Positions 14,773-17,677 of a stretch of DNA of 34,866 bases are shown in pieces. The stretch lies in assembly GCF_016901035.1 (NCBI RefSeq), contig NZ_JAFEUF010000036.1, positions 8,033-42,898 of the forward strand, in the 5' to 3' direction. This stretch comes from Streptomyces durocortorensis (GTDB lineage: Bacteria; Actinomycetota; Actinomycetes; Streptomycetales; Streptomycetaceae). Below the pieces are notes generated by a model. That model ran no database searches, was not told the origin of the DNA, and saw only the letters and a program-made list of their open reading frames with translations. Made by a program: the position numbers and the translations under genes. Position 1 is the stretch's first letter; each line of letters opens with the position of its first letter.

Positions 14773-14807
14773 GCCGTCAGCCGTCAGCCGTCAGCCGTCA
14801 GCCGTCA
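14773..14807 (-). repeat. Five tandem 7-bp repeats at the yihY-like stop codon
   Basis: GCCGTCA x5 on the plus strand, that is TGACGGC on the minus strand, beginning exactly with the TGA stop of the YihY-family gene (14805-14807). Because 7 is not a multiple of 3, the TGAs fall in all three frames. Confidence 0.9.
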
Positions 14808-16022
14808 GCGGGGAGACGGTCCCTCCGGCGACGAGGAGCCCTTCGGCTCCTTCACGTCCTTGGGCTCCTTGGCTTCCTTCGCGTCCCTGGGCTCCTTCTC
14901 CCAGGTCGCGTGCAGCCGGGACTTCACGTCGTCGGGCGGCAGGAAGCGGGACCAGCGCTCGGGGAACTCGGAGGGCATGTACGCGGGGCCGTCGTCCTCG
15001 TCATCGTCGTCGTCCGTGCCGTCGTAGGCGGCCGAGCGGGTACGGGCGACGAACTCGGCGGCCTGGGCGGCCCGGACGCGTTCGGTGGCCTCGCGGGCGG
15101 CGGCCGTGGCGAGGGAGGGCCACACCCGGTCGATGGCCGCGTTGACCGCGGCGCCGACCAGGACCGCGAAGGCGGAGATGCCGATCCACAGCAGCACGGC
15201 GATCGGCGCCGCCAAGGAGCCGTAGATGGTCGGGCCCTCGACCGTGCTGGTCAGGTAGATCCGGAGCAGGAAGCTGCCGAGGACCCACATGCCGAGCGCC
15301 ACCAGCGCCCCGGGAACGTCCTCGATCCAGGGCGAACGGACGGGCACGGACACGTGGTAGAGCGTCGTGAGGAACGCGATGGTCAGCAGTATGACGAGCG
15401 GCCAGTACAGGACGGCTATGACCTCGGTGCCCCAGGGCACGAACTCGACCACCCGGTCCGGGCCGACGACCAGCAGCGGCAGCACCACCGCGCCGAGCAG
15501 CAGGGCGACGACGTACAGCAGGAAGGCCAGCAGCCGGGTCTTGACGATGCCGCGGTGGCCGTCCAGGCCGTACATGACGGTGATGGTGTCGATGAAGACG
15601 TTCACCGCGCGGGAGCCGGACCACAGGGCGATGGCGAAGCCGAGGGAGATGACGTCGGGGCGGGCCCCGGTCGTGACGTCGGCGAGCAGCGGTTTGGCGA
15701 AGTCGTTGACCCCGCGCTCGGACAGCACCGTCTGGGAGGCGGAGAGGATGTTGCGCTCGATGGAGGCGACGGTGGTGGTGGTCGTCCACTCGTCGACGTA
15801 ACCGAGCAGTCCGATCATGCCGAGCAGCAGCGGGGGCAGCGAGAGCAGGGTGAAGAACGCCGCCTCGGCCGCGAGGCCCAGAATGCGGTACTCGATGCAC
15901 GAGTTGACGGTGTCCTTGAGCAAGTGCCACGCCATGCGCCGTTTGGAGACATTGCGGTAGAGCACTCGCGCCCGGTGGAGCCGGCCCGGGGGCCGCTCGG
16001 GTGTTTCCTTTGCTGCCTGCAC
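14805..16022 (-). CDS. YihY/BrkB-family inner membrane protein
   Basis: 405 residues if started at GTG 16022 (VQAAKETPERPP...); later starts at GTG 15965 or ATG 15935 are possible. Around residues 30-330 it has the YihY domain with about six membrane helices: NSCIEYRILGLAAEAAFFTLLSLPPLLLG, the conserved SGSRAVNVFIDTITVMYG, then hydrophobic helices near LLAFLLYVVALLLGAV, VIAVLYWPLVILLTIAF, VPGALVALGMWVLGSF and APIAVLLWIGISAFAVLVGAAVNAA. The C-terminal ~90 residues are cytoplasmic, with an acidic patch (GTDDDDDEDD) and a Lys/Glu/Pro-rich tail with KEPK-type repeats. Function of the family is not settled; it is not RNase BN. GTG 16022 lies at the end of an AAGGAGGTG-like sequence and fits a leaderless start from the symmetric element at 16028-16034. 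Confidence 0.85.
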   Translation of the reverse strand: MQAAKETPERPPGRLHRARVLYRNVSKRRMAWHLLKDTVNSCIEYRILGLAAEAAFFTLLSLPPLLLGMIGLLGYVDEWTTTTTVASIERNILSASQTVLSERGVNDFAKPLLADVTTGARPDVISLGFAIALWSGSRAVNVFIDTITVMYGLDGHRGIVKTRLLAFLLYVVALLLGAVVLPLLVVGPDRVVEFVPWGTEVIAVLYWPLVILLTIAFLTTLYHVSVPVRSPWIEDVPGALVALGMWVLGSFLLRIYLTSTVEGPTIYGSLAAPIAVLLWIGISAFAVLVGAAVNAAIDRVWPSLATAAAREATERVRAAQAAEFVARTRSAAYDGTDDDDDEDDGPAYMPSEFPERWSRFLPPDDVKSRLHATWEKEPRDAKEAKEPKDVKEPKGSSSPEGPSPR

Positions 16023-16027
16023 CTCCT

Positions 16028-16034
16028 TACCGTA
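16028..16034. promoter_or_regulatory. Symmetric TACCGTA: overlapping -10 elements of two leaderless genes
   Basis: On the plus strand TACCGT (16028-16033) lies at -12 to -7 from the ATG at 16040. On the minus strand TACGGT (16034-16029) lies at -12 to -7 from the GTG at 16022. Both match TANNNT. The start codons are 18 bases apart and centred on this element. No room exists for separate leaders. Confidence 0.6.
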
Positions 16035-16039
16035 TCGGC

Positions 16040-17677
16040 ATGGCAGCCACCACCCACACCGTGACCAATCAGGTTCCGCCGCTGGTCGGCCTTGACGTCT
16101 TCGCCGCCGACCGGGTCCTGTCCGAGGCCGTCGAGCGGCACATCGAGCCCGCGGTCCTGCCCGTGGCGCTGGTGGAGCTCGGGGAGCTCGGCCGGGCCGC
16201 CGGCTCCACCCAGGCACAGGAGTGGGGCGCGCAGGCGAACGCGCACCCGCCCGTTCTGCGGACGCATGACCGTTACGGTCATCGCGTCGACGAGGTGGAG
16301 TTCCATCCTTCCTGGCACCGGCTGCTGGGCCATGCCGTATCCGCCGGGCTGACGGACGCCTGGGGCCGCCCGGCCGGTCATGTCCGGCGCGCGGCGGGGT
16401 TCCTGGTCTGGTCGCAGGCCGAGGCGGGGCACGGCTGCCCGCTGTCGATGACGCATGCCGCGGTGCCCGCGCTGCGGACCGATCCGGCGCTGGCCGCCGA
16501 GTGGGAGCCGCTGCTGACCTCGCACACGTACGTGGAGGGGCTGCGGCCCCCGGGCGAGAAGGCAGGCGTGCTCTTCGGGATGGGGATGACCGAGAAGCAG
16601 GGCGGCACCGACGTGCGGTCGAACACGACCCGGGCCGAGCCGCTGGCGGGCGAGGGCGAGTACCTGCTCACCGGGCACAAGTGGTTCTGCTCGGCGCCGA
16701 TGTCGGACGGTTTCCTGGTGCTGGCGCAGGCCCCGGGCGGGCTGAGCTGCTTCCTGGTGCCGCGCGTGCTCCCGGACGGCGCCCGGAACGTGTTCGCGAT
16801 CCAGCGGCTGAAGGACAAGCTGGGCAACCGGTCCAACGCGTCCGCCGAGGTCGAGTTCGACGGGACCTGGGCCCGCCGGGTCGGCGAGGAGGGGCGCGGG
16901 GTGCGCACCATCATCGAGATGGTGGCGGCCACCCGCCTCGACTGCGTGGTGGGTTCGGCGGCGCTGATGCGGCAGGCGGTGGCGCAGGCGGTCCACCACA
17001 GCACGTATCGCAGCGCGTTCGGCGGGGTGCTGATCGACAAGCCGCTGATGCGCAACGTCCTGGCGGATCTGGCGCTGGAGTCGGAGGCGGCGACGGTGCT
17101 GGCGATGCGGCTGGCGGCGGCGTACGACGCGGACACCGAGGAGGAGCGGGCCTTCCTGCGGCTGGCGCTGCCCGCCGCGAAGTTCTGGGTCACCAAGCGC
17201 TGTACCGCCGTGGTGGGCGAGGCGCTGGAGTGCCTGGGCGGCAACGGGTACGTGGAGGAGTCGGGCATGCCCCGGCTGCTGCGCGAGGCGCCGCTCAACT
17301 CGATCTGGGAGGGCTCGGGCAATGTGCAGGCGCTCGACATGCTGCGGGCGCTGCAACGGGAGCCGGGGGCGCTGGACGCGTTCCTGCGGGAGGTCGGGCA
17401 GGCGCGCGGGGCGGATCACCGGCTGGACGCGGCGATCAAGGGGTTGCTGACGGAGCTGGCCGATCTGGACGGCATCGAGGCGCGGGCGCGGCGGCTGGTG
17501 GAGCGGTTCGCGCTGGTGCTCCAGGGGTCGCTGCTGGTGCGGTGGGCTCCGCCGGAGGTGGCCGACGCGTTCTGCGCGTCGCGGCTCGGCGGGGACGGGG
17601 GTGCGGTGTTCGGGACGCTGCCGCACAGCCTGGATCTGGCCTCGGTGGTGGCACGGGCCCGGCCGGTCGCCTCGTAG
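16040..17677 (+). CDS. Acyl-CoA dehydrogenase, AidB-like
   Basis: 545 residues, ATG 16040. No Shine-Dalgarno precedes it, consistent with a leaderless transcript. FAD-dependent acyl-CoA dehydrogenase fold of the AidB/DNA-alkylation-response branch: long N-terminal part (PLVGLDVFAADRVLSEAVERH), SQAEAGHGCPLSMTHA, GMGMTEKQGGTDVRSNTT (FAD/substrate loop, ~180-197), HKWFCSAPMSDGFLVLAQ, and near the end of the catalytic region CLGGNGYVEESGMPRLLREAPLNSIWEGSGNVQALDMLR, which is the AidB signature. E. coli AidB binds DNA and has weak isovaleryl-CoA dehydrogenase activity; the role in Streptomyces is unclear. Not part of the catabolic module 2.5 kb away. A perfect 17-bp hairpin ends the gene. Confidence 0.9.
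   Translation: MAATTHTVTNQVPPLVGLDVFAADRVLSEAVERHIEPAVLPVALVELGELGRAAGSTQAQEWGAQANAHPPVLRTHDRYGHRVDEVEFHPSWHRLLGHAVSAGLTDAWGRPAGHVRRAAGFLVWSQAEAGHGCPLSMTHAAVPALRTDPALAAEWEPLLTSHTYVEGLRPPGEKAGVLFGMGMTEKQGGTDVRSNTTRAEPLAGEGEYLLTGHKWFCSAPMSDGFLVLAQAPGGLSCFLVPRVLPDGARNVFAIQRLKDKLGNRSNASAEVEFDGTWARRVGEEGRGVRTIIEMVAATRLDCVVGSAALMRQAVAQAVHHSTYRSAFGGVLIDKPLMRNVLADLALESEAATVLAMRLAAAYDADTEEERAFLRLALPAAKFWVTKRCTAVVGEALECLGGNGYVEESGMPRLLREAPLNSIWEGSGNVQALDMLRALQREPGALDAFLREVGQARGADHRLDAAIKGLLTELADLDGIEARARRLVERFALVLQGSLLVRWAPPEVADAFCASRLGGDGGAVFGTLPHSLDLASVVARARPVAS

Follow-up and report, generated by a model that had tools for sequence, protein, structure and literature searches.

A candidate symmetric −10 element common to divergent, putatively leaderless AidB-like and YihY-family genes in Streptomycetaceae

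Results and discussion

Two divergent start codons flank a symmetric heptamer

The window, by which we mean the whole 34,866-base stretch of Streptomyces durocortorensis DNA that was analysed, contains two divergent genes whose start codons are separated by an intergenic stretch of 17 bp. Pfam bears out the names given in the initial annotation, as the minus-strand product matches PF03631 (BrkB/YihY) and the plus-strand product carries AidB_N and acyl-CoA dehydrogenase domains. Inspection of the sequence also showed the described geometry to be exact, with the YihY GTG at 16022 (minus), the AidB ATG at 16040 (plus), their first bases 18 apart, and TACCGTA at 16028-16034 between both start codons. 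As had been claimed, this heptamer can be read as TACCGT at −12/−7 of the plus-strand start (16028-16033) and as TACGGT at −12/−7 of the minus-strand start (16034-16029), and the two −10 elements overlap in five bases. Opposite-strand −10 elements that overlap, with −7T and −11A reciprocally paired, characterise shared −10 bidirectional promoters and are present here, and the predicted start sites lie at the preferred 18 bp; in several other genera and families the distance is 19 or 20 bp. The features are listed below, where aligned gene pairs are called compact if the gap is short and both −10 elements are present, and separated otherwise.

14805 to 16022 (stop included), minus strand: YihY/BrkB-family membrane protein gene, 405 aa, GTG start
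16040 to 17677 (stop included), plus strand: AidB-like acyl-CoA dehydrogenase gene, 545 aa, ATG start
16028 to 16034, no strand: symmetric core TACCGTA (TANNNTA), common to both candidate promoters; its T, A, T and A are invariant in 56/56 compact rows with homology-set starts
16028 to 16033, plus strand: putative −10 element TACCGT of the AidB-like gene, 6 nt before the ATG; kept in compact rows
16029 to 16034, minus strand: putative −10 element TACGGT of the YihY gene, 6 nt before the GTG; TANNNT at the same place in 38/38 separated Streptomycetaceae rows
16034 to 16039, plus strand: six bases from the −10 element to the ATG of the AidB-like gene; 6 or 7 nt in compact rows
16023 to 16028, minus strand: six bases from the −10 element to the YihY GTG; includes a non-conserved Shine-Dalgarno-like AAGGAG
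16052 to 16057, minus strand: possible YihY −35 element GTGGGT, 17-nt spacer, within AidB codons; tentative, by eye; the separated clade has TGAG at −35/−32 before YihY

TANNNTA occurs once in the 34,866 bases of the window, exactly at this gap, where 2.69 occurrences are expected, and the full layout CAYN5TANNNTAN5RTG has a single match in the window and none in 100 shuffles. Across the 7.96-Mb genome this 18-bp pattern is found at one place. A reversed-pattern control also matches once per strand, and a single 18-bp match is therefore not improbable in itself. The 19-bp version occurs at three places in the same genome and the 20-bp version at none (controls, 2 and 3 per strand, respectively). 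None of the three 19-bp sites has convincing genes on both sides, the opposite frames being 35, 5 and 59 aa; the site with the 59-aa frame precedes what we take to be an L33-like gene. The evidential weight of the site comes from its conservation rather than from the rarity of the pattern.

The TA..TA frame is invariant in compact gene pairs

We compared 136 loci: 75 from named Streptomycetaceae, collected with the YihY protein as query, 40 of the 118 family genomes and 20 of the 92 class genomes in which AidB had a match, plus the window itself. We selected the 20 class loci by hand, 15 of them because a YihY match adjoined the AidB match. One of the genes was missing from the stretch examined at 21 loci, leaving 115 with both and 113 once two duplicates (L087 and L117) had been discarded. 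Without L020 and L115, which also show TANNNTA when read from an in-frame GTG at 18 bp, the tally comprises 111 rows (60 compact and 51 separated). The compact label demanded both −10 elements, and the only row with a gap of 25 bp or less that was thereby moved to the separated class is L144. Protein homology to the window determined the YihY start in all but 11 rows, where the start was re-chosen because a −10 element preceded it; four such rows (L090, L138, L139 and L142) are within the 60 compact rows and outside the 56-row column test described next. The named rows nearest to the window are Streptomyces rubiginosohelvolus, S. parvus and S. griseus.

A cross-species alignment of the gap, proposed in the initial annotation, gave the predicted outcome, with TANNNTA and the tight spacing kept in compact pairs. 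When the 56 compact rows with an 18- or 19-bp gap are aligned on the YihY start codon alone, T-12, A-11, T-7 and A-6 are invariant, while each of the other 13 intergenic columns has changed 1-12 times on the tree, 66 times together. By our own arithmetic, which assumes one rate for all columns, the chance that changes would miss exactly those four is about 2e-8. The inner three bases of the core vary (CGG, CCG, CTT, ACG and CGT, with ACT in L115). Invariance of TA..TA is the footprint to be expected if two TANNNT elements are superimposed. With 6 or 7 nt from each −10 element to its start codon, the gap comes to 18, 19 or 20 bp, and the compact, shared TANNNTA is present in families f1 (Streptomycetaceae), f9 (L138, L139 and L142) and f26 (L141 and L143, both ATG/ATG). 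It may perhaps extend to f8, where the core of L154 is 21 bp wide and the YihY frame is ended by the contig edge after 36 aa. A conserved downstream start for YihY, which the initial annotation had named as a finding that would tell against it, was not seen among the homologues compared. We also considered a T at −18 as a further conserved element and rejected it: T is present in 44/56 compact rows, where it arises because the AidB ATG falls there at 18 bp, and G takes its place in the other 12 and in 34/38 separated rows.

Separated Streptomycetaceae pairs retain both putative −10 elements and lose the symmetry

In 39 Streptomycetaceae rows AidB and YihY are still divergent and lie 87-179 bp apart (1889 bp in L037). 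Among the 38 of these with a gap below 200 bp, T-12, A-11 and T-7 of YihY are kept in 38/38, and so are the T, A and last T of a TANNNT that lies 6-7 nt before the AidB ATG. The seventh base is the one needed by the partner promoter only. For YihY it is A in 60/60 compact rows against 2/51 separated rows of all families (the exceptions being L067 and L086), and the base that follows the AidB −10 element is A in 0/38 separated Streptomycetaceae rows. Four g3 loci have AidB but no YihY within the stretch examined, and there the seventh base of the AidB −10 element is G, as judged by eye. A second island precedes YihY in the 38 separated rows, namely TGAG at −35/−32 (33, 38, 36 and 35 of 38), fixed relative to the GTG; no AidB −35 element was seen in these rows. 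A large Streptomyces clade has split the two promoters and kept both, so sharing is not essential.

Outside Streptomycetaceae the AidB −10 element was not recognised in 11 of the 12 separated rows. The eight f14 rows, with gaps of 42-91 bp, keep the YihY −10 element, and in L144 (gap 25, start uncertain) the AidB −10 element is absent.

On the tree the compact label requires 8 changes, and well-supported branches force 6 of these. Independent pairs that contrast the compact label with the seventh base gave 4 in the same direction, 0 in the opposite direction and 2 with no difference (p 0.125), an association that is consistent and rests on few events. The tree was midpoint-rooted, for drawing only, and our reading of it is that the compact layout is the older state within Streptomycetaceae.

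Two side observations concern the fate of the core. In the separated pair of L086, ACCGTAGGCG is found at both ends of the 123-bp gap, as if a shared −10 element had been duplicated when the genes parted. In L181 and L182 the f26 YihY keeps the symmetric core at 18 bp opposite a 39-aa frame, with AidB elsewhere in these genomes.

Evidence that both mRNAs may be leaderless

For each gene, TANNNT stands at start distance and is conserved relative to the start codon, and a conserved Shine-Dalgarno sequence was found for neither. There is none upstream of AidB in the window. The YihY GTG is abutted by AAGGAG (16023-16028, minus), a Shine-Dalgarno-like run that was missing from the initial annotation. 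This run is not conserved, and since it directly abuts the GTG it is unable to serve that codon at normal spacing. No ATG, GTG or TTG is found 5-12 nt downstream of it. With no start at the right distance and the run not kept in relatives, we rejected it as the YihY Shine-Dalgarno sequence.

The −10 element remains fixed 6-7 nt from the start in both compact and separated Streptomycetaceae rows, which fits leaderless genes, as leadered ones would let this distance drift. We infer that both mRNAs are leaderless, with their predicted start sites on the start codons. In S. coelicolor a TANNNT −10 element was assigned to 2,870 of 3,570 start sites, and leaderless mRNAs arise from 21.0% of the primary ones (PMC4895711). 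In bacteria a TANNNT some 12 bp ahead of the start is a mark of leaderless genes (PMC3160421). For S. griseus 364 leaderless mRNAs have been mapped (PMC8914203; dRNA-seq data PRJEB40918), and the AidB/YihY gap of S. griseus NCTC13033 (L003) matches that of the window in every base. The YihY start is GTG in Streptomycetaceae, in contrast to the AUG preference (76.4%) of leaderless mRNAs in S. coelicolor (PMC4895711).

A shared two-way promoter and its alternatives

Conservation of the core and of its spacing supports a single symmetric −10 element locked to both start codons. We consider one −10 element shared by two divergent leaderless genes to be the best explanation, with a probability of roughly 0.74. 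We hypothesize that the 17 bp between the start codons would form a complete bidirectional promoter, in which one TANNNTA of primary-sigma type could be read on either strand. RNA polymerase would bind in either orientation and melt the same few base pairs, and transcription would begin on the first base of one start codon or the other, A for AidB (ATG) and G for YihY (GTG). The two leaderless mRNAs would be translated from their first codon, and the upstream contacts of each promoter would fall within the opposite gene. The initial annotation had called divergent start sites 18 bp apart from symmetric −10 elements a general bacterial phenomenon, and in published work 18 bp is indeed the commonest distance at symmetric bidirectional promoters (PMC12825309, PMC10268837). 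At such promoters −7T and −11A are reciprocally paired and opposing polymerases cannot bind simultaneously (PMC10268837, PMC12825309), and opposing polymerases are likewise probably mutually exclusive at the core described here. Several points weigh against the shared promoter: the few independent contrasts, the unrecognised AidB −10 elements, L181 and L182, L067 and L086, the GTG start, the failure to find an AidB −35 element, and the lack of an excess of the layout across Streptomycetaceae (see below).

One alternative, which we regard as unlikely, is that only one of the genes is leaderless, so that the core is its −10 element and the other gene is leadered and relies mainly on a more distant upstream promoter within the neighbouring gene. 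The AAGGAG before the YihY GTG resembles part of a ribosome-binding site, and f14 YihY keeps its −10 element where none was recognised for AidB. Such a reading is at odds with the invariance of both halves of the core in compact rows, with the retention of a −10 element at start distance by both genes in separated Streptomycetaceae rows, and with the absence of conservation of AAGGAG itself. It is highly improbable that the core is chiefly the operator of a dimeric regulator. The core is palindromic, and two sites of the same pattern (L127 and L128) resemble operators that we take to be iron-box-like, but only TA..TA is fixed while inner bases and flanks vary, and in separated rows the symmetry is lost while TANNNT stays at start distance.

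The initial annotation had also suggested a toggle, with the core existing so that expression of the membrane protein and of the alkylation-response enzyme exclude each other. Overlapping −10 elements must compete if both are busy, and strong activation in one direction can repress the other, although in E. coli such repression was seen only when the opposite direction was strongly raised (PMC12825309). Basal transcription at the five tested E. coli bidirectional promoters was too low for polymerases to compete (PMC12825309), and the promoters are separate in 39 Streptomycetaceae rows. The toggle is therefore unsupported and we think it improbable. Since basal two-way transcription is so low in the published cases, we expect the shared promoter to support weak, mostly independent initiation in both directions rather than to act as a bistable switch.

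Relation to known systems

The proposed arrangement resembles bidirectional promoters with a shared symmetric −10 element, whose start sites are mostly 18 bp apart, whose −7T and −11A are paired and where one polymerase excludes the other (PMC12825309, PMC10268837). It differs in that both predicted start sites coincide with the start codons of protein genes and that spacing and core are kept across families; the word leaderless does not appear in the main text of either paper. It also resembles leaderless genes in which a TA-like signal precedes the start by about 12 bp (PMC3160421, PMC4895711, PMC4633059), given its TANNNT 6-7 nt from ATG or GTG. Those genes are described with one −10 element each, whereas here one core would serve two. 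A divergent pair in which both genes are leaderless is already known. Closely juxtaposed divergent promoters are common in M. tuberculosis, where prpD (Rv1130) and the regulator gene prpR (Rv1129c) are divergent neighbours and both are mapped as leaderless; the figure legend describing them gives neither a start-site distance nor a shared −10 element (PMC3898074). Our literature search, which covered titles and abstract openings, returned no −10 element common to two leaderless genes and nothing on the AidB/YihY gap; the founding Nat Microbiol 2021 paper, outside its scope, may contain cases.

At this site two known phenomena, leaderless genes and symmetric bidirectional promoters, would come together, both locked to protein starts. 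Since species can be compared at the four TA..TA positions and in the spacing, sequence alone can be used to ask which bidirectional promoters selection keeps. The clade with separated promoters offers a natural experiment on what each promoter needs once sharing ends, and the spacing rule helps to fix start codons in annotation.

Related layouts at other gene pairs

There is no Streptomycetaceae-wide excess of the exact layout, as CAYN5TANNNTAN5RTG is present in 65/200 genomes and the reversed control is, by inspection and unsummed, at least as frequent. From these matches we chose 20 further 18-bp stretches by hand as recurrent or interesting, one of them an AidB/YihY pair that served as positive control. 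Long frames on both sides were found for a PEP-utilising enzyme opposite a 211-aa protein (L131 and L132) and for a glyoxalase opposite a family-4 glycosyl hydrolase (L136).

Across the class, CATN5TANNNTAN5ATG occurs at 38 places in 31 of 148 genomes, compared with 12 for the reversed pattern (summed by hand), and single leaderless genes beside a chance CAT must account for some of the difference. Five of the 29 loci that were read have frames of at least 80 aa on both sides: two AI-2E-transporter-like pairs (L164 by Pfam, L165 by likeness), two AidB/YihY pairs, and L167, where one of the two products is CtaA-like. L166, L175 and L189 represent one unrelated pair, a protein of about 220 aa and one of 62-76 aa that begins MRWWK; neither had a Pfam match when L175 was tested. 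The larger protein has a match in 44/148 class genomes. Among its best 30 loci (L190-L219) the small gene is divergent in 28, and 19 of those 28 have an 18-20-bp gap with TANNNTA, which is TAGGCTA in 15 of the 19. These compact loci belong to families f4, f9, f10, f13, f17 and f37. The other nine divergent loci, four of f26 included, have no compact TANNNTA gap. In the f26 loci (L216-L219) the pair stands without a shared TANNNTA, and in L218 and L219 the gap instead contains purine-rich runs that resemble Shine-Dalgarno sequences; we read this as a possible replacement of leaderless by leadered starts.

We speculate, at even odds, that double-leaderless bidirectional promoters form a recurrent, selectively maintained class in Actinomycetes, in which a 7-bp TANNNTA and two short discriminators would be the whole control region of two proteins. 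The spacing would stay at 18-20 bp because both mRNAs would suffer from any insertion, and escape would be possible only by splitting into two complete promoters.

Twelve of the 20 chosen 18-bp stretches were not counted as pairs. Ten lie before a presumed L33-like ribosomal protein gene; the frame on the opposite side measures 10-25 aa at eight of these loci, and 81 and 196 aa at L118 and L126. The remaining two lie before an ABC-ATPase-like gene and face frames of 16 and 19 aa. The L33-like genes (L118-L126, L134 and L160) start directly after the −10 element at start distance, and at several of these loci TGGAAATGATTTCC-like palindromes, presumably Zur-box-like, adjoin the −10 element. At L127 and L128 the −10 element of the ABC-ATPase-like gene lies within a TTAGGTTAGGCTAACC-like palindrome, presumably iron-box-like, directly before the ATG.
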